From: Bacteroidia bacterium
Lineage (GTDB): Bacteria > Bacteroidota > Bacteroidia > Bacteroidales > JAPLDU01
Assembly: GCA_026391255.1 (NCBI GenBank)
Contig: JAPLDU010000001.1
Span: forward strand, 42,901-106,900
Direction: 5' to 3'
DNA: 64,000 nucleotides
A program made the translations under genes and the position numbers. Every line of letters begins with the position of its first letter. Position 1 is the stretch's first letter. Positions 34,210 through 49,935 of the stretch are shown here, piece by piece. A model generated the notes under the pieces. It did not search any database. It saw nothing but the letters and a program-made list of their open reading frames with translations, and was not told where the DNA came from.

Positions 34210-34629
34210 ATGAGAAGTAAGATTTTATGCCTGGCAATTTTGATAAGTGCATTTACGCTCAATGTTCATGCACAATGCGGTGGTGCAGAACCAGGCACAA
34301 ATAAGCCGACCAGCATTGGCATTGTAATTTATTCAAACGATGCGGAGACTGTCTGGAATGCCATGCGGTTTGCAAATTTCTCGAAGAACCAGGGCGATAC
34401 GGTAAGTATTTTCCTACTTGGAAAAGGAGTGGAATTGGACAACCTGGTGAAGACTGATAAGAATATTAAAGAGCAGACCGATGAATTTACAGAGGCCGGT
34501 GGAACTATACTTGGCTGTGGCACTTGCTTACAAAGCCGTAAAATAAGTGAACCACAGGTATGCAAATTCTCATCTATGAAAGACCTGTATGATATTGTCC
34601 GCAAAAACAAGGTTGTTTTAACATTTTAA
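34210..34629 (+). CDS. Exported DsrE/DsrF-family protein
   Basis: The 139-aa protein has a signal peptide ending NVHAQ. Its core is a DsrE-fold: SIGIVIYSNDAETVWNAMRFANFS, VSIFLLGKGVELDNL, then GGTILGCGTCLQSRKI with two cysteines where DsrE homologues carry the active Cys. DsrE proteins relay persulfide sulfur, but most are cytoplasmic, so an exported one is notable. A TAATTTTG element lies about 53 nt before the start. It points toward the sulfur cluster but is on the opposite strand and convergent with it. Confidence 0.8.
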   Translation: MRSKILCLAILISAFTLNVHAQCGGAEPGTNKPTSIGIVIYSNDAETVWNAMRFANFSKNQGDTVSIFLLGKGVELDNLVKTDKNIKEQTDEFTEAGGTILGCGTCLQSRKISEPQVCKFSSMKDLYDIVRKNKVVLTF

Positions 34630-35241: not shown

Positions 35242-36363
35242 CTAATTATTTGATAAATTCTCCCGGAAGTAATAAAATAATGCCAGTGGTCTGTACACAG
35301 CGTGTGCAAACTTTGAAAATGCAAACAGGAGTACCAGTTCCATTGAAATAATGGTATGCACTAGTAAAATGTAGTGATTTGCAGGATGGTTAAAAGTAAA
35401 AAATACGGATATTTCCATCCAGAAGCCTGTAAATCCTGCTATCCAAAGAAACCATAGGAAAACGTTATCGGCAATATTTGTCTCTGCATAAGACCTTGTG
35501 GCTTTCCTGCTGCGGTAAAGGAGCATCATGCTTGTGCCATAAATCAGAAATAAACCGGCCAGGGTTCCCAATATGCGGGCAGGCCACCAGGTTGTGGTTG
35601 CCGGATCTTTCAACAGAAAATCAAGTAAAGTGGCTGCAAGTAAACCAATAAACCCCCACATCACCGACCAGTGAATAAACCATGGTTTCTGAAAAGCAGG
35701 TTTGTCCTTCCAGTATGAATCTTCTTCCAGGTCGCATGTCCGGTAACGTTTCATGGTGGCTAATTCGCCAAATACTTCTTTCCAAGAACTAAGACAGCTG
35801 TTTTTCTTTGCTTCACCTGATTTATTACTTTTCAGCCTGAGGAACATGTTCAAAAGCCCCCAGATGATTGACATTCCGGTAATAGTGAATATAACCAGTC
35901 CCATGTTATGGATCACAGCGTATGGGATCATTTTAAATATCCACCTCGATACAACATGATCTGGTTTCAGGGTAAAAAGAAAAACCCCGAGTACTAATGC
36001 CATGATTGATGTAAACAGGATGAATAAAAGCTTGTTTTTGAACAATAACTTTGTTAGGCCGGTAGGTTCGTAGCTGGCAATGGCGTAACGATGCAGGGCT
36101 GCCATGTAATTACCGGGTGCGGCCTGCCTTGGGCAGGTTTCGGAACAATCACCGCAGGCATAACACAACCATAATTCTTTGCTTTTGAGGATTTCTTCTT
36201 TTAATCCTAACATACCGTATCGTATGAACATGCGGGGGAAGTTAGCATCATTTGCCGTTAATCCACATATAGCAGTGCAATTGCCACAATTAAAACAAGC
36301 ATTGAAATCGCTGGCTCCGTATTTTGTTATTTCGGATGCAAAACCCGGATCAATTCTGGTCAT
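35242..36363 (-). CDS. qmoC: QmoC-like subunit: HdrC ferredoxin domain fused to haem b membrane domain
   Basis: The 373-aa protein has two HdrC-type [4Fe4S] motifs, CFNCGNCTAIC (residues about 23-33) and CYACGDCSETC (about 67-77). About five to six transmembrane helices with histidines follow, typical of a NarI/HdrE-like haem b domain. This fusion is the hallmark of QmoC in sulfate reducers, where the Qmo complex links menaquinone to AprAB; no aprAB is seen here. The start overlaps the hdrA stop by 14 nt, so translation is coupled. It is the last gene of the sulfur cluster. Confidence 0.85.
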   Translation of the reverse strand: MTRIDPGFASEITKYGASDFNACFNCGNCTAICGLTANDANFPRMFIRYGMLGLKEEILKSKELWLCYACGDCSETCPRQAAPGNYMAALHRYAIASYEPTGLTKLLFKNKLLFILFTSIMALVLGVFLFTLKPDHVVSRWIFKMIPYAVIHNMGLVIFTITGMSIIWGLLNMFLRLKSNKSGEAKKNSCLSSWKEVFGELATMKRYRTCDLEEDSYWKDKPAFQKPWFIHWSVMWGFIGLLAATLLDFLLKDPATTTWWPARILGTLAGLFLIYGTSMMLLYRSRKATRSYAETNIADNVFLWFLWIAGFTGFWMEISVFFTFNHPANHYILLVHTIISMELVLLFAFSKFAHAVYRPLALFYYFRENLSNN

Positions 36364-38344
36364 GTTGTATATTCTTCAGTCTGTAATAATAATATTCATC
36401 GGAATCATCCATCCCATCAGCCTCAACCAGGCTGTATTTATTCATTGTCATCAGGTGATAAGTCAGGACATTGGCAGGTACATCAAGCTCTTTTACCAAT
36501 GCAGGTATAGTCTTTGATTCCTTCTGCAGAGATGCTGATATTCTTAGCCATAACTGCGGCTGGTCTTTCATTTCAGCCCCGGTAACTGCACTTTGTTCAT
36601 CTTCACTTTCTGCGGATTCTTTGAGTTCGACTTTCTCTGAAAATCCGTCAATCATTCCTTCGATTTCAGCATTCGAATACTGAGCTATGTCAATGGCATC
36701 GTTAGGGCAAACAGGTGCGCAGATACCACAACCCTTACAAACCGCTTCGTTCACTGAGGCAACTGTTTTTCCGTACATTTCCAATGGATGAACAGCGTCG
36801 TATTCACAGACTTCAGCGCATTTTCCGCACCAGACACAGGTATCAAAATTCACTCTTGCAATGACGGGTTCAAGTTGAATAGTAGGATTTTTCGTGAGGG
36901 CATTGATCTTAACTGTTGCAGCCATGGCTGATTGTACCGATTCTGTGATATTCTTCGGTCCCTGGCATGATCCGCCGATGAATACTCCATTGATCACTGT
37001 TTCTACAGGTCTTAACTTTGGATGTATCTCATTAAAAAACTTATCATTTCCGACCGGTATCTTCAGTTTTCCCGCTAATTCCGCTGTATCTTTTCCGGGA
37101 ACCAACCCGGTGACAAGTACCACAAGATCAGTCTCCAGTTCGAGGTCCTGTTTTCTTGTAAGTTCATCCTTCACCTGAATAAGGAGGCGATGCTTTGAAT
37201 TACTCACTTTGGGAGGTATTTTCTCATCAAATTTCAGGTAAATATCCCCGTTCTTTGATGATTGTTCATACAATACTTCCTGTTTCCCATAAGTACGAAT
37301 ATCCCTGTAAAGGTGATATACCAAAACTGATTTGAATTTATTATGAACAAGCAGTGAACTATGGATGGCAGTAGTGCAGCAGACCCTGGAACAATATTTG
37401 TTTTCGCCTTTGGTCTGCCGCATTCCAACACAGTAAATAAAAGCTATGCTGTTTACCTTTTTATTCTGATAATTGAGAGTATCACCGCAGTTATTTAATA
37501 GCTCTCTAAATTCAGGCAGGGTAATTACATTAGAAAGTTCACCATATCCATATTCACCAATAGCCGGCTGGTAATGGTCATATCCGGTGGTGACAAGAAT
37601 AGCTCCCACTTTTAAATTCAGTATTTCATCACTAATTCTGACTTCAACATCGAAATTTCCGAGACTGCCGCTGACCTTACCAATACCGGCATTAGTAAAC
37701 AGGGTGATATTTTTATCGGATTTCACTTTGGTCAACAGTGCGGAAATAATTTCATCACCTGTTTTTCCATCCATAAACATTTCTCCCCAGCGGGCAATGT
37801 GCCCTCCCGGTTTGTATTCCTTTTCGATCAGGTACACCTGGTTTCCCATTTGTGACAAACCTATTGCTGCACGCATACCGGATACGCCTGCACCAATGAC
37901 TACTGCTGCCCTTGTTGAACTGACTTCAATATTTTCAAGCGCTTCAGAATGTGAAACTCTGTTGATACCTGCCAGAATGAGACCTGCTGCTTTCTCACTT
38001 GCTTCTGATGGGGTGTCTGAATGAGCCCATGAACATTGCTCACGTATATTCACCTGGGTATAATTGTAAGGATTTAATCCGGCTCTTATTGCCACATTGC
38101 GGAAAGTATGCAGGTGAAGTTTAGGAGAGCAGGAAGCAACAACAATACCATCAAGCTTTTGATCAACAATATCATTGACCATTTCCTTCTGGTTTGAATC
38201 GGCACAGGCAAACATCACATTCTTTGCGACCACAACCCCGTCCAGTCCTTTCACAATATCTTTTATCTGTGATACATCCACATAGTCGGAGATATTTCCC
38301 CCGCAATGACAGATGTACACTCCTATCCGTTGTTTTTTCTCCAT
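36350..38344 (-). CDS. hdrA: HdrA-type flavoprotein with C-terminal winged-helix domain
   Basis: The 664-aa protein has the HdrA N-terminal domain (VYICHCGGNISDYVDV), the FAD fold (AVVIGAGVSGMRAAIGL), the CCG-like region YCVGMRQTKGENKYCSRVCC, and two ferredoxin clusters (CVWCGKCAEVCEYDA, CKGCGICAPVCPNDA). After an acidic linker the last 60 residues read LWLRISASLQKESKT, VPANVLTYHLMTMNKYSL and YYYYRL, an ArsR-like winged helix not found in standard HdrA. HdrA carries the FAD at which electron bifurcation occurs. ATG at 38344 is preferred to the TTG at 38353. It is coupled to qmoC. Confidence 0.86.
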   Translation of the reverse strand: MEKKQRIGVYICHCGGNISDYVDVSQIKDIVKGLDGVVVAKNVMFACADSNQKEMVNDIVDQKLDGIVVASCSPKLHLHTFRNVAIRAGLNPYNYTQVNIREQCSWAHSDTPSEASEKAAGLILAGINRVSHSEALENIEVSSTRAAVVIGAGVSGMRAAIGLSQMGNQVYLIEKEYKPGGHIARWGEMFMDGKTGDEIISALLTKVKSDKNITLFTNAGIGKVSGSLGNFDVEVRISDEILNLKVGAILVTTGYDHYQPAIGEYGYGELSNVITLPEFRELLNNCGDTLNYQNKKVNSIAFIYCVGMRQTKGENKYCSRVCCTTAIHSSLLVHNKFKSVLVYHLYRDIRTYGKQEVLYEQSSKNGDIYLKFDEKIPPKVSNSKHRLLIQVKDELTRKQDLELETDLVVLVTGLVPGKDTAELAGKLKIPVGNDKFFNEIHPKLRPVETVINGVFIGGSCQGPKNITESVQSAMAATVKINALTKNPTIQLEPVIARVNFDTCVWCGKCAEVCEYDAVHPLEMYGKTVASVNEAVCKGCGICAPVCPNDAIDIAQYSNAEIEGMIDGFSEKVELKESAESEDEQSAVTGAEMKDQPQLWLRISASLQKESKTIPALVKELDVPANVLTYHLMTMNKYSLVEADGMDDSDEYYYYRLKNIQHDQN

Positions 38345-38351
38345 GAAACTC

Positions 38352-38386
38352 AATTTGAAAATTTGAAAATTTGAAGATTTGAAGAT
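38352..38386. repeat. Family A repeat (reverse orientation) upstream of hdrA
   Basis: AATTTGAAAATTTGAAAATT followed by TGAAGATTTGAAGAT is a tandem of ATTTGAA words next to the hdrA start. With the copy at 38514-38548 it forms an inverted pair in the 197-nt spacer between the two HdrA-type genes. Confidence 0.8.
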
Positions 38387-38513: not shown

Positions 38514-38548
38514 ATTTTCAAATTAGCACATTTTCAAATTTTCAAATT
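38514..38548. repeat. Family A repeat at the HdrA-GltD gene end
   Basis: ATTTTCAAATTAGCACATTT and TCAAATTTTCAAATT contain the GCACATTTTCAAATT-like core. The stop codon TGA of the 916-aa gene lies within it. Confidence 0.8.
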
Positions 38549-41292
38549 CTTTCATTCAGGTAACCGGCCACTTCTGAGGCAGCACATCCTGCTGACAATA
38601 TCGAATCGGGAATATCCATTGGTGCTGCAGCAGTTCCGGCAACAAACACTCCATCGACCGATGTTCTGGCCGGGCTTGTCATTACATCTATCTGGCGTAT
38701 GAAACTAAACTGGTCAAGTTCCGGCTGATTGTCACCGAAGGCCTGTACAATTTTATTATCAGGCAAAACACCTACAGACAAGACTACCAGGTCGTGAACC
38801 ACTTCTTTTACCTGGCCGGTCTCAATATTCTCATATCTCAGGATAAGGTCTCCGCTTTTATCGTCCTTTTCCTTAATCCTTGCAACCTTACCTTTGATAA
38901 AATTTACTCCCATAGATTTCGACTGCTGGAAGAATTCTTCGTATCCTTTTCCGAAAGCCCTGATATCGATGTAATAAATGGTAATATCGGCCATGGGCAA
39001 GGCACCCATTAACAATTGTGCCTGTTTGATAGAATACATACAGCAAATCTGTGAGCAAATGGGGTTGTTGGCACTGGCCATGCTGCAGGAGCGGTAATTT
39101 TCAAGGCTTGAATCACGTGATCCGGTACAAAGCACATAAGCTATATTTCCCGGTATCTTTCCATCACCCGGTCGCAGGACATTATTAAATGGCCTGGTCG
39201 GAGCAATGAGACGGTCCATCTGCAGTGAATCGATTACGTTGGGATAGATGGCAGAGCCGTACTGAGGTTTAGATTCAGGATTAAACAAATTGAATCCAGT
39301 TGAAATGATTACTGAACGGGCGTTTGCAGAAATGCTCTCTTCCTTTTGTGAGAAATCAATGGCATCGGCCGGACAGGCAGAAATGCACTGATGACACTCA
39401 CGGCAGTTGCTGCAATCAAGACACCTGTTTGTACTCTGCCTGACCTCGTCTTTAGTGAATGTCAGTTCCACATCCTCGAAATCCCTGATCCTTTCTGAAA
39501 CAGGACGCATTTTTTCTTTCAGTCCGGGAAGCAATAAAATATCTTTACGTTCCAGTATCTTGTTTTTATCAACCGGAGCAAGCTTATCGCCAAATTCATA
39601 CTCTCCGGGATTTTTACCTTCCAGAAATTTGTTCATATAAAAAGCGGCCCTCTTTCCTTGCCCAATAGCTTCAATGATGGTTGACGGGCCTGTCACCGAA
39701 TCACCTCCTGCGAATATCCATGATGTGTTTGTTTGTAAAGTTTTATCATTTACTTTTATGGCTCCGTCTTTGCCCAGTGTCAGTTCTCTGCCGAACACCG
39801 ATGTTGTCGGATACAGACCAATGGCTTCAATGACGAAATCAACATCAACCGAATATTCCGAACCTTCAATGGAAACTGGTCTTCTGCGCCCGCTTTCGTC
39901 TTTATCACCAAGTTTCATCCTGATTAGCTCAGCTTTAACTACATTACCGTTTTCGCCTATAAATCGTACAGGGTTACTCAATTCATTAATTTTGACACCT
40001 TCTTCCTCAGCCTCATGAATCTCTGCTTTCCAGGCCGGCATTTCATTTCTGCTCCTGCGGTAAACAATGTTCACTTCTTTTGCGCCGAGCCTGATGGCAG
40101 TGCGAGATGCATCCATGGCTGTATTACCTCCACCTATTACCATGACCTTTTTACCTTCCAGGCTGATCTTATTCCCTATCTTTGATTCACGCAGAAAATC
40201 AAGGCATGAAACAATTCCTTGTAGTTCTGAGCCTTCCACATTCATCTTACTTGTTTCGTGAGTACCCACAGAGACAAACACGGTATCAAATCCAGCATTT
40301 TTAAGAGTTTCAAGATTTTCAACCTTGTGGTTCACTTCATATTCAACACCCAGCGACAATATGTTCATAATATCCCTGTCGACAATGGCTTTTGGAAGCC
40401 GGTATTCGGGAAGGGTAAGCTTCAGCATGCCACCAAGTTCGGAAGCTGCTTCAAATAATTTAACCTGGTGTCCGGCCAGTGCAAGAAAATAGGCTGCTGT
40501 GAGCCCTGCAGGCCCTGATCCCACCACGGCAGCTTTTTTGCCTGATTTCTTTTCAATTGAAATGGCAGGAGGAACAGGGTATTTTGTATAGTAATCTTCA
40601 GCAAAGAATCTCTTTATCCTGCGTATATCAACTGATGCTTCAAGGCTTGCACGTGTACACTCACTTTGGCAGGGAGCATAGCATGCACGGCCCAGACTGC
40701 CTGGTAATGGAGCATCCTCAAGGTGAAGCATCATGGCATCTTCATATTGTCCGTTCCTGACTAATGAAATATAGCCATATGGCTTTATACCTCCGGGACA
40801 GGCTGCGATACATGGCGCAGATGAATCCTGCCTGTCAATGACTGCAATACGGGGGTTTGCCAGGCTGAATGGTATATAGGCCACTTTTCGGCCTGCCAGG
40901 TAACGGTTGTATTCATCTGGTCTGACTTCAGGGCATGCCTGCTCACATTCCTGGCAGCCGGTACATGCTTCAGGGATAACATACCTGGGACGCTTATTGA
41001 TATTAATGCTGAACTCTCCGTTATTTTTCCTGATGCTCTTAATATCACTGTTCAGAAGCACAGTAATATTCGGATGTCTTGCTGTCTCTGACATCTTTGG
41101 AGTTGTGATGCAGGCAGCACAATCGAGAGTAGGAAATACCTTGCTTAACTGAATCATTTTCCCGCCAATGGAAAGTTCTTTATCAACCAAGAGAACTTTA
41201 TAATCCATATTGGCCAGGTTGAGCGCCGCTTCCTGCCCGGCAATCCCTCCGCCAATAACCAATGTGTCGAATGTCTGATTGTTATTTGTCAT
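38542..41292 (-). CDS. HdrA-GltD fusion: bifurcation-type flavoprotein with NAD(P)H module
   Basis: The 916-aa protein begins as HdrA (LVIGGGIAGQEAALNLANMD, FPTLDCAACITTPKM) with a [4Fe4S] set CTGCQECEQAC at about 110-120. A complete GltD-like module is then inserted: Fe-S cysteines (CIAACPGGI, CYAPCQSEC; about 160-215), FAD fold VVGSGPAGLTAAYF (about 256), NAD(P)H fold VMVIGGGNTAMDASR (about 383) and YRRSRNEMPA. HdrA resumes with CLDCSNCRECHQC (about 624) and the C-terminal half (YVLCTGSRD, CSQICCMYS). It thus has two flavin sites and a nucleotide site in one chain. The ATG overlaps the FlpD stop by 4 nt. Confidence 0.85.
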   Translation of the reverse strand: MTNNNQTFDTLVIGGGIAGQEAALNLANMDYKVLLVDKELSIGGKMIQLSKVFPTLDCAACITTPKMSETARHPNITVLLNSDIKSIRKNNGEFSININKRPRYVIPEACTGCQECEQACPEVRPDEYNRYLAGRKVAYIPFSLANPRIAVIDRQDSSAPCIAACPGGIKPYGYISLVRNGQYEDAMMLHLEDAPLPGSLGRACYAPCQSECTRASLEASVDIRRIKRFFAEDYYTKYPVPPAISIEKKSGKKAAVVGSGPAGLTAAYFLALAGHQVKLFEAASELGGMLKLTLPEYRLPKAIVDRDIMNILSLGVEYEVNHKVENLETLKNAGFDTVFVSVGTHETSKMNVEGSELQGIVSCLDFLRESKIGNKISLEGKKVMVIGGGNTAMDASRTAIRLGAKEVNIVYRRSRNEMPAWKAEIHEAEEEGVKINELSNPVRFIGENGNVVKAELIRMKLGDKDESGRRRPVSIEGSEYSVDVDFVIEAIGLYPTTSVFGRELTLGKDGAIKVNDKTLQTNTSWIFAGGDSVTGPSTIIEAIGQGKRAAFYMNKFLEGKNPGEYEFGDKLAPVDKNKILERKDILLLPGLKEKMRPVSERIRDFEDVELTFTKDEVRQSTNRCLDCSNCRECHQCISACPADAIDFSQKEESISANARSVIISTGFNLFNPESKPQYGSAIYPNVIDSLQMDRLIAPTRPFNNVLRPGDGKIPGNIAYVLCTGSRDSSLENYRSCSMASANNPICSQICCMYSIKQAQLLMGALPMADITIYYIDIRAFGKGYEEFFQQSKSMGVNFIKGKVARIKEKDDKSGDLILRYENIETGQVKEVVHDLVVLSVGVLPDNKIVQAFGDNQPELDQFSFIRQIDVMTSPARTSVDGVFVAGTAAAPMDIPDSILSAGCAASEVAGYLNERI

Positions 41293-41687
41293 TCCAGTTC
41301 AGCTAATATCCTGGTAAAATTGGCCATATGGCTGGCAAACGGCTCAGCACAAACTGAACAGATCGCTGCCATCCTGATACGTTTCGGGCTGATATTTGCC
41401 TCCTTCATTAACCGCTGTGATTCCTCAATGATCATGTTGGTATATTCTGGACACTTAGAGCTGTAGGAACACTCATGCCCATCAGCAGCAATGAATACCC
41501 CATCGAAACCCTGGTTGAAAGCATGCATGATCCAGCGAGGTTTGATGCCTGAAGAACAAGGCAGACTTATCACATAAACAGAAGGTGAGTAATGGATTTT
41601 TCTCAATCCTGCCTGGTCAATGCCCGGATCAGAAATTTTATCAGTTGAAAATACCAGTATCCTTGGTCTGGTATGTTGATTTCCCAT
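41289..41687 (-). CDS. FlpD/MvhD-type hydrogenase iron-sulfur subunit
   Basis: The 132-aa protein has the MvhD pattern: SLPCSSGIKPRWIMHAFNQGFDGVFIAADGHECSYSS with CPEY, then a C-terminal AAICSVCAEP. MvhD/FlpD carries a [2Fe2S] cluster and wires HdrA to a hydrogenase, formate dehydrogenase or NADH module. Here the gene overlaps the HdrA-GltD fusion by 4 nt, so it probably relays electrons between that fusion and the second HdrA. No hydrogenase gene is near. Confidence 0.85.
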   Translation of the reverse strand: MGNQHTRPRILVFSTDKISDPGIDQAGLRKIHYSPSVYVISLPCSSGIKPRWIMHAFNQGFDGVFIAADGHECSYSSKCPEYTNMIIEESQRLMKEANISPKRIRMAAICSVCAEPFASHMANFTRILAELE

Positions 41688-41749
41688 GATTGTCTAATAA
41701 ATTGATAATAATCTTAAGTACTCCAAAATTCCGTGGATTTAATACTCTT

Positions 41750-41822
41750 ATTTTTTTTGCGTCCCTTGCGTAAGTTGAGTTAAAAATTAAACGCAAAAGG
41801 CGCAAACGACGCAATTTCAAAG
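41750..41822. repeat. TTTGCGTC-type inverted repeat upstream of the FlpD gene
   Basis: TTTTGCGTCCCTTGCGTAAG on the left and AACGCAAAAGGCGCAAACGA with CGCAATTT on the right form a GCG-word foldback. It lies in the 164-nt spacer between tusA and the FlpD gene. Confidence 0.65.
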
Positions 41823-41851
41823 TACTCTTACAGAGATGTTAAAGATCATAT

Positions 41852-42103
41852 TCAGGCTTTTTTCAGGAAAAGTCTTGAATAACTGTCTTCTTCAATGATT
41901 CCGAGGAATTCATGTGTCATTTTCTGACACCATTTCGGAATGTCATTTTTGGTTCCTTCATCTGATGAATAAATCTCCATGATCTCACCTGATCCGATTT
42001 CCCCAATTCCTTTTTTTGCGGCCAGCAGTGGTCCGGGACAGGCTGTTCCTCTTGCATCAACAATTGTAGCTGGTTTTATTCCTTTTAATTCTTCTGTAGT
42101 CAT
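41852..42103 (-). CDS. tusA: TusA-family sulfur carrier
   Basis: The 83-aa protein has the TusA/SirA motif with the persulfide cysteine CPGP (VDARGTACPGPLLAAKKGI) and a second block (IYSSDEGTKNDIPKWCQKMTHEF). TusA accepts sulfur from cysteine desulfurases and passes it to DsrE-type partners. It is 11 nt downstream of the DsrE2 gene, in the same operon. Confidence 0.93.
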   Translation of the reverse strand: MTTEELKGIKPATIVDARGTACPGPLLAAKKGIGEIGSGEIMEIYSSDEGTKNDIPKWCQKMTHEFLGIIEEDSYSRLFLKKA

Positions 42104-42114
42104 TGTATGTTATT

Positions 42115-42666
42115 TTAAATGAATAATTGTATTTTACTTTCCTGAGCATCTGCAAGGAATGTTGCCACGCCACAAACTGTTAAACCGGGGTAATCAATCA
42201 TTTCTTCCTTTTTGAATCCCATCAGGTTCATCGACATCTCGCATATATTGATCACAACCCCAAGTTCACCGGCTGTTTTAATCATTTCAGGGAGAGATGC
42301 AACCTTGTGTTTTTTCATGATGCCTTTGATCATGGATGTTCCCATACCGCACATGTTCATTTTCGAGAGTTTTACCTTTCTGCTTCCTTTGGGAAGCATC
42401 ATTCCAAACATCTTTTCCACCAGATTTTTCCCTTTCCCGCTTTTTTCAGGATCACGCAAAGCTGAAGTAGCCCAGAATGTGAAGAATAGTTTGACTGTCA
42501 TATCATAAGCTGCGGCACCTGTCGCAATAATCATTGCAGCAAGAATTTTATCCAGGTCGCCGGAAAATACTACCATTGATAGCTGATCCTTTGTACCGGT
42601 TTCAATCTTATATACTTTGGAAGTCAATTCCATCAACTGCCTTTCAAAATCAGGGGTCATAGTCAT
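42115..42666 (-). CDS. dsrE2: DsrE2-like DsrE/DsrF/DrsH-family protein
   Basis: The 183-aa protein has the DsrE fold: LSMVVFSGDLDKILAAMIIATGAAAYDM, KLFFTFWATSAL, a long middle loop with MCGMGTSMIKGIMKK, and a C-terminal LGVVINICEMSMNLMG with a candidate active Cys. DsrE2 proteins associate with TusA and rhodanese in sulfur-transfer clusters. A candidate CRP/FNR-type site and a -7-like element lie upstream, so this is probably the first gene of the dsrE2-tusA unit. Confidence 0.85.
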   Translation of the reverse strand: MTMTPDFERQLMELTSKVYKIETGTKDQLSMVVFSGDLDKILAAMIIATGAAAYDMTVKLFFTFWATSALRDPEKSGKGKNLVEKMFGMMLPKGSRKVKLSKMNMCGMGTSMIKGIMKKHKVASLPEMIKTAGELGVVINICEMSMNLMGFKKEEMIDYPGLTVCGVATFLADAQESKIQLFI

Positions 42667-42711
42667 GTATATTAATTTATATATATAGATTTATAAATAT
42701 TTGCAATGTTA

Positions 42712-42720
42712 CAAAGTATA
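42712..42720 (-). promoter_or_regulatory. -7-like element of the dsrE2-tusA unit
   Basis: TATACTTTG on the minus strand resembles TAnnTTTG with a one-nt longer spacer. It lies about 46 nt before the dsrE2 ATG. The match is imperfect. Confidence 0.35.
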
Positions 42721-42742
42721 TAAATGCTTTAAAAATTATATA

Positions 42743-42758
42743 TGTGCTTTATATCACA
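42743..42758. promoter_or_regulatory. Candidate CRP/FNR-type operator upstream of dsrE2
   Basis: TGTGCTTTATATCACA matches TGTGA-N6-TCACA with one mismatch in the left half. Its centre is about 34 nt upstream of the -7-like element, close to the class II activator position. The same consensus appears perfectly at 48438. Confidence 0.5.
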
Positions 42759-42773
42759 ACACAATGTGCAATT

Positions 42774-43946
42774 TTACACATTGCGATTTTTGCCAATAGC
42801 AGCAATATCTGCAAGGGCATTTATTGCCGTATCGATATGATCCTCAGTATTAAATGGCCCTATACTTAACCTGACAGTACCATGAATTTTATCAGTTCCA
42901 AGCAATTCATGAACCATTGGCGCACACTGGAGTCCGGTTCGTACTGCAATATTGTAATCTACGTCAAGTAAAGTACCCACATCGCCTGAGTCGAAGCCTT
43001 TGATGTTCAGACTCAGAACAGGATTATGGTGGATTATACTTCCTGCGCAATAAATAGTTATGTTCTCAATATTCTGCAGACCATTTAGAAGTTTGTTCCA
43101 AAGAGCCATCTCGTGGTCATGCAGTTTATCAATCCCTCTTTCTAGTATCCATTTAACACCTGCATTAAGTCCTGCAACCCCAAGTATATTAAGTGTACCA
43201 CATTCAAGTCGGTATGGATATTCATCGAGGTGTGTTTTTTGAGCAGAACGAACCCCGGTTCCACCGTAGCGCGAATGGCGCACATTTACTCCTTCCATTA
43301 CGTATGAACCGCCTATTCCTGTCGGCCCCATCAGGCATTTATGTCCTGTGAACACAATTATATCAATTCCCATTTTTTTCATGTCGATAGGTATTGCTCC
43401 GGCGCTCTGGCTTGAATCTACTACAAACAGAACTCCATGTTCTTTACATATCTTACCAATTTCCTCAAGGGGTTGAATTGTTCCTATCACATTTGAACAA
43501 TGGTTCACAACTACCATTTTTGTATTAATGCGTAAGGCCTTTTTTATATCGTCAGGTTCGACGTAACCTTGTGAATCAAATGGGATGTAGGTCACATTTA
43601 TTATTTTATCAAGGCTTAAATGATATAATGGCCGCAGTACTGAATTATGTTCGAGCATGGTTGTCACCACGTGGTCACCTGGCTCAGCAAGCCCCTGCAA
43701 AATCATATTTAGTGAATCGGTGGCATTATAACTAAATGTAAGGCGGTTCGGGTCATCTCCGTTAAAAAGACCGGTAAGCAGTTTCCTGGTTTCCTGTACA
43801 AGGCTTTCTGTTTCAATTGCAGCATCAAACCCGGAACGACCATGGTTAACACCATGCTCACGGTAAAACTTGCACATGAAATCGTACACAAAATCAGGTT
43901 TTGGGAATGTTGTAGCTGAATTATCCAGGTAAATCAGATTGCTCAT
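42774..43946 (-). CDS. Cysteine desulfurase-family PLP enzyme
   Basis: The 390-aa class V aminotransferase-fold protein starts IYLDNSATTFPKP. It has NHGRSGFDAA, the substrate-loop His in TTMLEHNSVLRPL, the PLP Lys in FTGHKCLMGPTGIGG and the catalytic Cys in VRTGLQCAPMVHELLG. This matches the TIGR01977-like cysteine desulfurases rather than IscS. It would supply persulfide to TusA and DsrE2, whose genes follow 107 nt downstream. Confidence 0.88.
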   Translation of the reverse strand: MSNLIYLDNSATTFPKPDFVYDFMCKFYREHGVNHGRSGFDAAIETESLVQETRKLLTGLFNGDDPNRLTFSYNATDSLNMILQGLAEPGDHVVTTMLEHNSVLRPLYHLSLDKIINVTYIPFDSQGYVEPDDIKKALRINTKMVVVNHCSNVIGTIQPLEEIGKICKEHGVLFVVDSSQSAGAIPIDMKKMGIDIIVFTGHKCLMGPTGIGGSYVMEGVNVRHSRYGGTGVRSAQKTHLDEYPYRLECGTLNILGVAGLNAGVKWILERGIDKLHDHEMALWNKLLNGLQNIENITIYCAGSIIHHNPVLSLNIKGFDSGDVGTLLDVDYNIAVRTGLQCAPMVHELLGTDKIHGTVRLSIGPFNTEDHIDTAINALADIAAIGKNRNV

Positions 43947-44095
43947 TTTGCTGGCATTTATATTAATTTTAGAATTACGATTTACGAATATAATAATATG
44001 ATATTTAATGGATTAAACAATATTTATGTAATAAATAAATTTCGGTTTAATATTATTAAAAATTGACTATTTGTGGGAGAATTAATCTTGAGTTT

Positions 44096-45394
44096 TCAGA
44101 AATTAGTTTTATGGGGAATAATAGCTTCCGCTACTATTTCGGCCATGGTCATCAATTTTATTCCAAGTTTATAATAAATGTTAACCTGTGTAAGCTGGTC
44201 GATACAATTGTGGCATGGAGTCACGACAATTTTGGCTCCTGTTTGCCTTATCTGTTCAGCTTTTATTACGGCTGCTTTCATCCGTCGCTCATTGAACTCG
44301 CTCATGGCAAGCTGACCGCCGCCTCCTCCACAGCAGAAATTATCAATTCCGTGAGGCTCCATTTCTATAAATTGTTTTACGAACTGTTTCAGAATATATC
44401 TTTGCTCGTTAATTACACCACCATTTCTAACCAGGTTACACGGGTCGTGAATCGTAACCGGTACTTTAATTTTATCAGGGTCGAGATTTATACGGCCTTT
44501 GCGGATATAATCAGCAATGCACTCAACCGAACTTATCACTTTGAACGGAAATTGCTGCTTAAGGTAATTCGGAGCCTCCCAGCGAAATGCCCTTGTACCA
44601 TGTCCGCATTCTGCAAGCACCAGCGTGTTGCAATCAAGATGTTTCATTTCTTTTCGCAACCGTTCTGCAATAATAGCTGCCTCTTTGTTGTTACCTGAAA
44701 AATATGCATAATTGGTCACATCGTACATTTCTGATGACAATGTCCAGCTTTCGCCGGCGAAATAAAATATTTTTGCCATTGCTGAAATCGACAACGGATA
44801 AAATTTGGGTTCCCTTGGATTAAGTGTATACAAAATTTCTTTTCGTTTTTCATTAACCGGAATACGTGAAAGGGGATCACCTGTCTCATCCATCAGTTCC
44901 TCTTCCATCCATTTAATAGTATCAAGAAATTCTGTTAAAGGGATACTCATATTATTTCCGCTTTCCAGCGCTGCATTCACCGTCGATTGCAATGTTGCAG
45001 GAACAAAGCCCATTTCGGAAAGCATTGTCCTTCCCAGGCGGACAAGGTATGGTACATCAACACCGGTTGAGCAATGCATAGAACATCTGCCGCACATGGT
45101 ACAAGCTCCAAAGAGCAGATCGGTCATCTCTGATGCAAATTCGCCGTTCAGTTCTCTTGCATTTACCAGCTTTGGAAACACTTTTCCCTGCCATGTGCAG
45201 TAACGCCTGTATACAGATGTTACAAGATCGGCTTTCCTGCCTGGCATGAACCGCTCATCTTTTGTGGCCAGATAAAAAAAACAGCTTTCCGCACAAAGAC
45301 CACAGTGCACACAACTGTTCATATTTGTAATCATCCTGCTGTCTGGATGATTATTAAATATCCCGGGTTTTATTTTTGGTGTATTTCCCTGCAT
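44096..45394 (-). CDS. dsrK: DsrK/HdrD-like iron-sulfur disulfide reductase subunit
   Basis: The 432-aa protein has two ferredoxin motifs (CVHCGLCAESC about 28-38, CTMCGRCSMHC about 97-107) and a C-terminal CCG domain (VTIHDPCNLVR, NFCCGGGGGQL, TPCHNC). The CCG cluster in the DsrK/HdrB/HdrD family is the site of disulfide or trisulfide cleavage, here most likely on DsrC. It lies 16 nt downstream of the DsrM-like gene, as in dsrMK pairs. Confidence 0.86.
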   Translation of the reverse strand: MQGNTPKIKPGIFNNHPDSRMITNMNSCVHCGLCAESCFFYLATKDERFMPGRKADLVTSVYRRYCTWQGKVFPKLVNARELNGEFASEMTDLLFGACTMCGRCSMHCSTGVDVPYLVRLGRTMLSEMGFVPATLQSTVNAALESGNNMSIPLTEFLDTIKWMEEELMDETGDPLSRIPVNEKRKEILYTLNPREPKFYPLSISAMAKIFYFAGESWTLSSEMYDVTNYAYFSGNNKEAAIIAERLRKEMKHLDCNTLVLAECGHGTRAFRWEAPNYLKQQFPFKVISSVECIADYIRKGRINLDPDKIKVPVTIHDPCNLVRNGGVINEQRYILKQFVKQFIEMEPHGIDNFCCGGGGGQLAMSEFNERRMKAAVIKAEQIRQTGAKIVVTPCHNCIDQLTQVNIYYKLGIKLMTMAEIVAEAIIPHKTNF

Positions 45395-45410
45395 TTCCCT
45401 GAGGTCATAT

Positions 45411-46034
45411 TTATTTTTCGTTTACCGGTGGCCATACTCCGCGTCTTCCAAAGAAAAGCCCGAGATGATAACGGGCTGCAAAGAAATATACGGCATGTTT
45501 AAGCTTTCCTACCGGAAAATAAAGGAAAAGCAAACCTGAAACAATGAAATATGTAAAGTATGCAGATGAAAAATTAAGTACAATGACTGTTGTTACCTGA
45601 AAACCTGTAACAAGGATATTGGAAATGTAATCATCAGGATTTGATAATTTGCGCATCCTGGAATTGGTCATCCTTTTTATCAGAATTCCGATTCCACACA
45701 GGGCAGACGAGACCAGCACAATTGATGTAATAAAAATAACAGGTTCTGAAGGTGATAACTGCAGCCAGATGAAAGGGAAAAAAATAAGCGACAGGAATGT
45801 TCCGGCATGATAGATAATGCCTGCGGCATATGTTGGGAGATGCAAAAATGCTGTTTCTTTTCTTGCCGGGTTCATTGATGAAGTATAGGCGTACCTGATA
45901 CTTTCAGAAATGTTGCCGGCTGGTACTGAAAAGTCCTCAGGACGGCCAGGAGTAACAAGCCGGATTATCAACCGAAGGCAGGTTATACAGGCTAACACAG
46001 GCGGAATTATTGCAACCCAGTAATACCATTTCAT
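45411..46034 (-). CDS. dsrM: DsrM/NarI-like haem b membrane subunit
   Basis: The 207-aa protein has about five transmembrane helices and histidines placed as in NarI-type haem b proteins (LPTYAAGIIYHAGTFL, GKLKHAVYFFAARYHLG). It is shorter than typical DsrM. It precedes dsrK and follows dsrC, so it should pass electrons between menaquinone and DsrK. The ATG at 46034 is preferred over the TTG at 46055, which would overlap dsrC. Confidence 0.75.
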   Translation of the reverse strand: MKWYYWVAIIPPVLACITCLRLIIRLVTPGRPEDFSVPAGNISESIRYAYTSSMNPARKETAFLHLPTYAAGIIYHAGTFLSLIFFPFIWLQLSPSEPVIFITSIVLVSSALCGIGILIKRMTNSRMRKLSNPDDYISNILVTGFQVTTVIVLNFSSAYFTYFIVSGLLFLYFPVGKLKHAVYFFAARYHLGLFFGRRGVWPPVNEK

Positions 46035-46045
46035 AGCACGGATAG

Positions 46046-46363
46046 TTAAACGCAACCGTCAGGTTTAGGTAATCCTGCGACGCGGCATGCCCCGCGGGCA
46101 GGGCCAAGAGGAAATAACTCATATATCTCACGGAGTTTTAGTCCTGTTTGCTGGCAGATTACACGTATCATAGGCGCCATTCCTGTTTCTTCCCAACTTT
46201 TACGAATGATTCTGACAATTGCCCAATGTTTTTCATTTAATTCGGTAATGCCGTCGTATCCGGCAAATAACCGTGCTACTTCATCATTCCAAATGTCAGG
46301 CGTAAGTAAGAAACCATCACCATCAATCTCAAAATTTCTACCTTCAATTTCAATGCTTGGCAT
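46046..46363 (-). CDS. dsrC: DsrC sulfur carrier
   Basis: The 105-aa protein is DsrC/TusE-like: IEGRNFEIDGDGFLL, WNDEVARLFA, then the mobile C-terminal arm ARGACRVAGLPKPDGCV. Both arm cysteines are present, the penultimate CysA and CysB 11 residues before it, which marks true redox-active DsrC rather than TusE (CysA only). In sulfite reducers DsrC takes sulfur from DsrAB as a trisulfide and is reduced by DsrMK. The neighbours dsrM and dsrK fit that role, but dsrAB is absent here. It is 11 nt after the class V PLP gene. Confidence 0.93.
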   Translation of the reverse strand: MPSIEIEGRNFEIDGDGFLLTPDIWNDEVARLFAGYDGITELNEKHWAIVRIIRKSWEETGMAPMIRVICQQTGLKLREIYELFPLGPARGACRVAGLPKPDGCV

Positions 46364-46374
46364 AATTCGTTATT

Positions 46375-47862
46375 TTATAAAATAAACCATGATTCAACTT
46401 GTATCGATGATCTGTCTTTTCTTTTATTAACAAATTCATTGGTTCGCCTGTCATATTCATAATCCCTGCCCCATTCATCATAATGATTCCGTATCTGCCT
46501 GATTGCATCGATAATGTAAATCACATCTGTATCAGACATAGTCGGGTGAAGCGAAATTCTAACCCATCCCGGCTTTTCTGACAGGTCGCCAGCATTTATC
46601 TTACCTGTGATTTTTCGTGATTTTTCATAGCTGACATCAAGCAGGTAATGTCCGTATGTTCCGGCACATGCACATCCGCCCCTTGACTGAATTCCAAACC
46701 GGTCACTCAGTGACTTAACGATCAGGTTATAATGGATACCGGGAATATAAAATGAGATAACACCAAGACGGTCTTTAATATGATCAGCAAGTATATGAAT
46801 ATCAGGTACTGATTGCAATTCCCTGAAAGCAATATTAACCAGTTGATCTTCCCTTTCATGAATTTTTGAAGTATTCATTTTGTTTTTTAAATCAATACAC
46901 AGGGCTGTCTTGATTGCTTGCAGAAAACCAGGGGTACCGCCGTCTTCACGAATCTCAATATTATCAATGAATTTATATTCACCCCAGCGATTAGTCCAGT
47001 CAACTGTGCCGCCCCCCGGTTGGTCAGGTGATTTGTTATTGTATAGTTCTGAATCAAAGATAAGAACTCCTGATGCCCCGGGACCACCCAAAAATTTATG
47101 TGGTGAAAAGAAGATGGCATCAAGTTTTTCCCGTGGGTCATCCGGATGCATATTAATATCATCATATGGAGCTGAGGCAGCAAAGTCAATAAAAGCAAGG
47201 CCTCCGTATTCATGCATCAAGCGGGCCATTTCATGATAGGGAGTACGAATACCTGTAACATTTGAACAAGCGGAGAATGATCCGATCTTACGCTTCCTGT
47301 CTTTGAATTTTTTCAGTGCATCTTCCAGTTTGTTCAGATCAACAAGCATATCTTCTCCTGGCTCGACTACCACCACATCTGCGGATGTCTCGTACCAGGT
47401 GGTCTGATTGGAGTGATGTTCCATATGAGTGACGAATATCACAGGTTTTTCTGTTTCCCTGAGACATTTACTGTGTAATATATCTCCGCAAAGTTTTAAT
47501 CCGAGGATTCTCTGAAATTTAACTACAGCTCCTGTCATGCCAAATCCGGTCGTCAGGATAACATCATCAGCGTTGGCATTTACATGTTCTTTAATCTTTT
47601 TATGGGCAAGATGGTAGGCCTGTGTCATCAGCTTCCCGGTTTCACTGGTTTCAGTGTGTGTGTTACCGATGAATGGACCGATATGTTCAGTGATCATTTC
47701 TTCAATAGGCCTGTATAAACGACCACTTGCAATCCAGTCGGCATAGACCATTTTCACCCTGCCATATGGAGTCTGGTAATACTGGTCAATACCAATGATA
47801 TTATTGCGAAATGTACTGAAGTATTGCTCTGAATGGACTATTTCTTTGTCTGTAAGGAACAT
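46375..47862 (-). CDS. Class V aminotransferase-fold PLP enzyme (desulfurase-like)
   Basis: The 495-aa protein has YADWIASGRLYRPIEE near the start, GNTHTETSETG, the His in THMEHHSNQTTW, the PLP Lys in FFSPHKFLGGPGASGVL and a Cys-rich motif SRGGCACAGTYGHYLL at the catalytic-Cys position. It is longer than SufS/IscS and may be a cysteine desulfurase or lyase acting on another sulfur amino acid. Position directly before dsrC suggests it feeds sulfur to DsrC. Confidence 0.78.
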   Translation of the reverse strand: MFLTDKEIVHSEQYFSTFRNNIIGIDQYYQTPYGRVKMVYADWIASGRLYRPIEEMITEHIGPFIGNTHTETSETGKLMTQAYHLAHKKIKEHVNANADDVILTTGFGMTGAVVKFQRILGLKLCGDILHSKCLRETEKPVIFVTHMEHHSNQTTWYETSADVVVVEPGEDMLVDLNKLEDALKKFKDRKRKIGSFSACSNVTGIRTPYHEMARLMHEYGGLAFIDFAASAPYDDINMHPDDPREKLDAIFFSPHKFLGGPGASGVLIFDSELYNNKSPDQPGGGTVDWTNRWGEYKFIDNIEIREDGGTPGFLQAIKTALCIDLKNKMNTSKIHEREDQLVNIAFRELQSVPDIHILADHIKDRLGVISFYIPGIHYNLIVKSLSDRFGIQSRGGCACAGTYGHYLLDVSYEKSRKITGKINAGDLSEKPGWVRISLHPTMSDTDVIYIIDAIRQIRNHYDEWGRDYEYDRRTNEFVNKRKDRSSIQVESWFIL

Positions 47863-48474: not shown

Positions 48475-48505
48475 CATGATTACTTTTGCAACAACAAAAA
48501 CTCCG

Positions 48506-49204
48506 ATGTTTGAATTTGAGAATAAAAAGACAACGTGTCCTGATTGTAAGGATAAATCCTGTGCAGCTGCCATCCTGAGCAGGGAAGAGCTTGAAATGAT
48601 CAACTTTAACAGCCATGAGAGTGTGGTCAAGAAAGGAGAAATCATCCTTCATGAAGGTTCTCTGACTTCTCATATTATATACCTGAAGAGCGGGCTTGCC
48701 AAGGAGTTTGTAAAACCCACACCTGAGTCAGAGCAGATACTGTCCATCGTAAAAGAACATACCTATTTAGGTTTGTCCTCTTTATTTGGTGACAGGATCA
48801 ATCACTATTCCTATTCGGCACTGGAAGATGTAAAGGTGTGCTATATTGATATTGCAGTTTTTATCAATCTGGTCAGGAAGAACGGAAATTTTGCATATGA
48901 AATATTGGTATCGGTGAGTCGTGACAGCCTGAACAATTTTCACAGGTTTATCAATCAACTGCATAAAAAGATTTATGGTCGTGTAGCTGATGGGATTCTG
49001 TATTTCTCCAGGATCATTTACGAAAATACCACCTTCTCCCTTCCCATGTCAAGGCAGGAATTTGCTGATCTGATTGGTGTATCGAGGGAAAGCGCCACCA
49101 GGGTGCTCATTAAATTCAAGGATGAGGGGATCATCAATATTAAAGGCCACCTGATTGAAATAAACAAGGTGGAATTACTCGAACAGATCAGCAGGAAAGG
49201 TTGA
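48506..49204 (+). CDS. FNR-like CRP-family regulator with four candidate cluster cysteines
   Basis: From the preferred ATG it is a 232-aa CRP/FNR protein. The N-terminus has CPDCKDKSC (Cys 11, 14 and 19). A fourth Cys lies in DVKVCYIDI (about 112), at the place of FNR Cys122, so an oxygen-labile [4Fe4S] cluster is plausible. The cNMP-type barrel includes KKGEIILHEGS. The HTH is SRQEFADLIGVSRESATRVLIKF; its RE-xxx-R set is CRP-like and suits the TGTGA half-site just upstream. It probably autoregulates and controls the divergent sulfur genes under anoxia. Confidence 0.88.
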   Translation: MFEFENKKTTCPDCKDKSCAAAILSREELEMINFNSHESVVKKGEIILHEGSLTSHIIYLKSGLAKEFVKPTPESEQILSIVKEHTYLGLSSLFGDRINHYSYSALEDVKVCYIDIAVFINLVRKNGNFAYEILVSVSRDSLNNFHRFINQLHKKIYGRVADGILYFSRIIYENTTFSLPMSRQEFADLIGVSRESATRVLIKFKDEGIINIKGHLIEINKVELLEQISRKG

Positions 49205-49239: not shown

Positions 49240-49935
49240 TCAGCCTGTTTTACTGATTTTTTCAAGCCTTGTTTTATCAATAATCACAATGTCTTTTTCT
49301 CTGAGGCTGATCACAGAATCTTTCTCAAGTCCTTTAAGCAGCTTTACAGTACTTTCGGTTGATATACCTGCAAAGTCGGCAATATCCTTTCTTGAAAGTA
49401 GTTGGAAAATCTCCGGATTTCCGGCCTTTAATTGATTAATATAAAGCAAAGTATCAGCCAAACGACCATTCATTTGTTTAAACAGAACATTTTGCAAAGA
49501 GTGAAACAGGTTTGTGTTTTGTTCACAATATCGTTTTATGATATTGAATCCAAACAGTCCATTTTGCTTTACCACTTCTTCAATAGCTTCCTTTTCAACT
49601 AAGTAAGCCTGGCATTCTGTAAGGCATACAGCCGAATAATTATAGGTGTTCTTTAAAAAAACAGATGACAAACCGACAAATTCACCTTTAGTTATGATCT
49701 TCAGGTTATAACTTTTATCATGTTCACTTTCAATATACTGTTTGACAAATCCGTGAATGATAAACAATATGTATGATGCAAAGACTCCCTGTTTGGTCAG
49801 AGTATCCCCTTTCCTGAAAAGCACCTGTGTCTTGCTTTTTCTGACAAGTTCCGCCTCGTCAGACGAAAGCATCTGAAAGCATGGAGCCTGTATGTCACAA
49901 ATGAAATCGTGATTGGTTTCGACTATTGTCTTCAT
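49240..49935 (-). CDS. CRP/FNR-family regulator without full FNR cysteine set
   Basis: The 231-aa protein has two N-terminal cysteines (FICDIQAPCF), a cyclic-nucleotide-type barrel (FRKGDTLTKQGVFASYILFI) and a C-terminal HTH (SRKDIADFAGISTESTVKLLKGL). The recognition helix lacks the CRP RE-xxx-R set, so it should read another site. The inverted repeat TTTACCA-N11-TGGTAAA just upstream of its start may be its operator. It is convergent with the FNR-like gene. Confidence 0.85.
   Translation of the reverse strand: MKTIVETNHDFICDIQAPCFQMLSSDEAELVRKSKTQVLFRKGDTLTKQGVFASYILFIIHGFVKQYIESEHDKSYNLKIITKGEFVGLSSVFLKNTYNYSAVCLTECQAYLVEKEAIEEVVKQNGLFGFNIIKRYCEQNTNLFHSLQNVLFKQMNGRLADTLLYINQLKAGNPEIFQLLSRKDIADFAGISTESTVKLLKGLEKDSVISLREKDIVIIDKTRLEKISKTG

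Follow-up and report, generated by a model that had tools for sequence, protein, structure and literature searches.

A winged-helix domain fused to an HdrA-like flavoprotein in Bacteroidota: a candidate docking or assembly module of a Qmo/Hdr-like complex

Among the closest described relatives of the locus considered here is QmoABC, in which an HdrA-type flavoprotein (QmoB) stands beside the flavoprotein QmoA and QmoC, a subunit that combines HdrC and cytochrome b parts. In sulfate respiration, QmoABC is a partner of APS reductase. The HdrA and HdrA2 proteins of methanogens (5odc, 7bkb) have an FAD domain interrupted by a ferredoxin domain, and MvhD occupies the C-terminal position of the HdrA2 profile. 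Two kinds of winged-helix protein are also relevant. The ArsR-type proteins sHdrR, SoxR and SqrR are sulfane-sulfur sensors with two conserved cysteines, and the sulfane-sulfur-responsive repressors sHdrR and SoxR govern sulfur oxidation genes (PMC12423496). FeoC, a small winged-helix protein, was first predicted to be a regulator; it binds FeoB and shields it from FtsH (PMC10710835, PMC5519574).

The window, that is, the whole stretch of 64,000 nucleotides from a Bacteroidia bacterium that was analysed, resembles QmoABC in that an HdrA-type flavoprotein gene (36350..38344, minus strand) lies beside genes for a QmoA-like flavoprotein and a QmoC-like subunit. The latter (35242..36363, minus strand) combines an HdrC-type Fe-S domain with cytochrome b, and its start overlaps the end of hdrA by 14 bases. 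Unlike in QmoABC, the HdrA protein of the window ends in a winged helix, MvhD is encoded by a separate gene, and the qmoC product reaches 188.9 bits against a curated cut-off of 300. A search of the genome, which is 97% complete, gave no match to aprA or dsrA. Consequently, sulfate respiration is unlikely.

The hdrA/qmoB-like gene encodes 664 residues from an ATG start, with an alternative TTG start possible at 38353. The protein consists of an N-terminal Fe-S domain (1-140), an FAD/thioredoxin-reductase-like domain (~141-495), a C-terminal ferredoxin with two [4Fe-4S] clusters (496-560), a linker (~570-591) and the winged helix (~592-658). The sequence-only reading had described a normal HdrA, with FAD and two ferredoxin clusters, that ends in an ArsR-like winged helix. 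The gene is real, and the FAD domain and the two-cluster ferredoxin are present, which together with the N-terminal Fe-S domain make the protein HdrA-like in domain composition. The word normal does not hold for the FAD domain, from which the inserted ferredoxin domain is absent; canonical HdrA proteins, including a paralogue elsewhere in the same genome, retain it. The core shares the fold of methanogen HdrA and HdrA2 at 28-33% identity (33% to 5odh), and its top NCBIfam family is HdrA2, with a score under the cut-off of that family. In part of the fused clade (e.g., L054:9001-11193 and L057:9001-11199) the insert is kept and its cysteine motifs are gone, as if it were being lost.

The winged helix itself (residues ~592-658; 36371..36571, minus strand) follows a variable acidic linker (residues ~570-590; 36575..36637, minus strand; pLDDT <50 at 577-595). 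It contains the motifs that had drawn attention to it, TIPALVKELDVPANVLTYHL at residues ~612-631 and YYYYRL at 651-656. Searches with the single sequence give weak matches, to HTH_20 (E 0.002, 18.6 bits against a cut-off of 27) and, as the best NCBIfam match, to the ArsR-type family TsoR (NF045707; E 6e-4). Membership of TsoR is ruled out on score, the domain reaching 19.8 bits against a cut-off of 115. A profile built from 48 domains of the family, in turn, recovers relatives at E 1e-27 to 1e-33, and an AlphaFold2 model of the domain alone, computed with 47 relatives, gives helix-helix-helix-strand-strand with a two-stranded wing at a block pLDDT of 92-94. Since both profile and model support a domain, a chance motif is rejected. 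The closest solved structures in Foldseek and VIA-align are SmtB, SqrR, HlyU and CzrA of the ArsR/SmtB family and MarR (Foldseek TM 0.6-0.7, E ~1e-3; VIA-align Z 10-12 to ArsR/MarR chains), which confirms the proposed resemblance to ArsR. Chains of Z-alpha domains (4lb5, 5j6x) are also among the matches, and Pfam assigns Z-alpha to two members. Such a level of similarity is frequent among winged helices; it demonstrates the predicted fold, not a function. The full-length model is weak (pTM 0.57) and cannot place the winged helix on the HdrA core.

The distribution of the domain was followed across Bacteroidota by searching 99 genomes of the order in full and scanning public genomes, which yielded about 50 loci of the HdrA type found in the window. 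The search for further HdrA-winged-helix fusions, suggested by the earlier reading, returned 29 loci with the fusion, the window included; a cultured member, Petrimonas, has the fused form. Because the same fusion recurs in these loci, a frame or assembly artefact is ruled out as its source. In at least 24 further loci (23 in the tree described below and L030, where a contig edge truncates hdrA), a free winged-helix gene of about 90-130 codons lies directly after hdrA and before qmoC. Its distance to hdrA ranges from a 26-base overlap to a 131-base spacing and is about 10-30 bases in most cases. It overlaps or abuts hdrA and qmoC in several loci. Three deep relatives, L078, L079 and L146, belong to a different class of the phylum, and there the gene shares a few bases with each of its neighbours. 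The arrangement DsrE2-TusA-MvhD-QmoA-HdrA-(winged helix)-QmoC recurs widely. Other HdrA subfamilies in the same genomes (loci L024, L025 and L032-L037) are without a winged helix, and a search of plasmids found distant HdrA proteins only. Among the readable loci of the HdrA clade of the window, none is without a winged helix; the one exceptional locus, L045, is frame-broken. It belongs to the fused clade and has no intact domain, and its DNA still matches residues 4-659 while the neighbouring genes are fragmented too, so that the loss looks like an assembly error.

Co-occurrence with hdrA is exclusive. With the 48-domain profile, 23 of the 99 genomes yield strong matches (E 1.4e-27 or better), 24 in all since one genome contributes two; the window is included, and every one of the 24 lies within, or directly after, an hdrA gene of the window type. 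The remaining matches in these genomes (E 6e-5 and 1e-4) are different helix-turn-helix proteins at other sites. A search of 395 genomes of the phylum adds just two strong matches, and another two come from an additional search within one class; all four adjoin hdrA and qmoC. Other weak matches that were examined are ordinary ArsR-type or different helix-turn-helix proteins. Because the free-gene relatives always adjoin redox genes, the winged helix is more probably a dedicated part of an enzyme complex than a gene switch.

A quick tree was built from 61 HdrA cores. It unites the fused proteins, with L045 among them, in a single group at an SH-aLRT support of 100%. The free-gene loci occupy its sister group and two deeper branches, L146 and L078/L079, whose exact placement is unsure because the branches are long. 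With free loci basal and fused loci in a single group, the simplest history suggested by these sequences is that the free gene came first and was fused once. The small protein encoded between hdrA and qmoC would then have become the C-terminal part of HdrA in a lineage of Bacteroidales. A single fusion, together with the plausible ArsR ancestry of the domain, is also what would be expected of a relic, a former operon regulator caught by read-through fusion and now functionless. This explanation is extremely doubtful. Across 22 aligned fused proteins the share of rows with the majority residue averages 65% over the winged helix and 36% over the preceding linker, residues T628, M632, T633, M634 and Y637 are invariant in 22 of 22, and the domain is missing solely in the frame-broken assembly.

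The sequence-only reading had left two roles open for the fused domain, that of a sensor and that of a protein-docking module. As a sensor, HdrA would be a trigger enzyme whose flavin and Fe-S centres report the redox or sulfur state while the winged helix represses or activates the operon. The top fold matches to ArsR, SmtB and SqrR are in its favor, as is the precedent of sHdrR and SoxR, which run sulfur oxidation genes elsewhere (PMC12423496). Some free members even exceed the ArsR Pfam cut-off (HTH_5, 22 bits), L020 with 29.1 and L016 with 24.9 bits. The equivalent of the recognition helix, TYHLMTMNKY (residues 628-637; 36434..36463, minus strand), is moreover the most conserved segment of the winged helix. 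Both of these last points also count against docking; a best-conserved recognition helix is equally expected of a DNA reader. For the same reason, asking whether conservation is limited to helices used for complex formation, a check proposed with the earlier reading, does not discriminate between the two roles.

The residues that would contact DNA point the other way. In 18 ArsR proteins from neighbouring genomes, used as controls, the reading helix is S-T-V-S-Q-H-L-K, of the Ser-x-His-Leu-Lys type. When the window family is aligned with them, this pattern is replaced by Thr-x-His-Leu-Met or Tyr-x-Leu-Met, the helix reading V-T-Y-H-L-M-T-M-N-K-Y in fused proteins and typically V-x-Y-Y-L-M-S-L-x-K-Y-G in free ones. 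The wing EADGMDDSDEYYYYRL (residues 641-656; 36377..36424, minus strand) is acidic. The mean charge of the wing loop is -4.1, against +0.1 in the 18 controls, a comparison of few and related sequences in which the p-value of the charge test overstates independence; the acidity is lower in the deepest free relatives (L079, L146). The model of the window domain, whose ends are disordered, shows no dimerisation helices flanking the winged helix. None of the conserved columns of the 48 members holds a cysteine, and the window domain has none at all. A persulfide sensor of the SqrR/sHdrR type is therefore ruled out. Furthermore, the neighbouring QmoC, the presumed partner, is a membrane subunit, and many loci already have a regulator of the Crp type. 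In the window this divergent Crp-family gene stands at the operon head (48476..49204, plus strand); it is found there in 18 of 34 other loci examined, several of the others being short of upstream sequence. The operon thus does not need the winged helix as a regulator. Taken together, a DNA-binding sensor appears quite unlikely, and a membrane-bound respiratory flavoprotein complex with a functional DNA-binding head of its own, reading its redox state directly on DNA, is very improbable. A conserved helix with Met in place of the ArsR Lys, next to an acidic wing, would suit contact with a protein better than contact with DNA.

Of the two roles first proposed, docking thus has the stronger support. 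As a free gene or as a fusion, the domain keeps to a single place in a single operon, its DNA-reading signature is replaced, its wing is acidic, its model is without dimerisation helices, and the operon has a separate Crp-type regulator. With moderate confidence, the winged helix can be assigned a part in docking or assembly within a membrane-bound sulfur redox complex of the Qmo/Hdr-like kind, a role resembling that of FeoC towards FeoB. The complex would comprise QmoA, HdrA/QmoB, the cytochrome b subunit QmoC and the separate MvhD. The conserved recognition helix and the acidic wing most probably bind another protein, candidates being the cytosolic face of QmoC, MvhD, or an incoming sulfur carrier (TusA, DsrE2 or DsrC). 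The likely partner is taken to be MvhD or QmoC because the winged helix holds the C-terminal place that MvhD has in the HdrA2 profile. Such docking could aid assembly, stability or electron transfer.

The comparison with FeoC extends to small size, winged-helix fold, location in an operon with a membrane system, and initial description as a regulator; the membrane partner itself is unrelated. The same precedent allows for a different function, in which the winged helix sets how long the complex persists, either shielding it from a membrane protease or exposing it to one, and plays no part in electron transfer or assembly. Such a turnover tag is unlikely. FeoC reportedly carries an oxygen-sensitive [4Fe-4S] cluster, whereas the window family has no conserved cysteines, and independent turnover would be lost in a permanent fusion. 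Should the docking or assembly role be correct, the Qmo/Hdr-like complex of Bacteroidota would contain a winged-helix protein as an additional subunit, one that annotation of single genes would name a regulator. It would also be another case, after FeoC, of a winged-helix protein in the service of a membrane enzyme, and the gene could mark a sulfur redox system in bacteria that have no genes for sulfate reduction. No account of such a subunit turned up when the literature outside subscription journals was searched for HdrA or Qmo combined with a winged helix or helix-turn-helix, an absence that is weak evidence.

The surrounding genes indicate the chemistry in which the complex may take part. 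Upstream of hdrA lie, all on the minus strand, genes for the QmoA/HdrA-like flavoprotein (38542..41292; 916 aa), an MvhD/FlpD-type iron-sulfur subunit (41289..41687), the sulfur carriers TusA (41852..42103) and DsrE2 type (42115..42666), a DsrK/HmcF/TmcB-like Fe-S protein (44096..45394), an HmcE/TmcC-like membrane anchor (45411..46055) and a DsrC-like sulfur carrier (46046..46363). From this gene content, the most plausible setting would be a redox system linked to quinone or NAD(P)H, with carrier-bound sulfane sulfur as its substrate. The QmoA-like protein contains a nested NAD(P)H-dependent GltD-like module in its inserted ferredoxin region. This long form occurs in most loci of the fused clade, and a QmoA of about 440 aa without the GltD-like module in most free-gene loci, with L146 as an exception. 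The sulfur-carrier operon (41289-47862), with its DsrC, DsrK/HmcF-like, HmcE-like, DsrE2, TusA and MvhD proteins, also encodes two cysteine-desulfurase-like proteins. At its head, the divergent Crp-family regulator has an N-terminal C-x-x-C motif, which might serve in metal binding or sulfur sensing, and a second Crp-family regulator is found at 49240-49935. Beside the operon, a DsrE-like protein (34210-34629) has a signal-peptide-like N-terminus and is possibly periplasmic.
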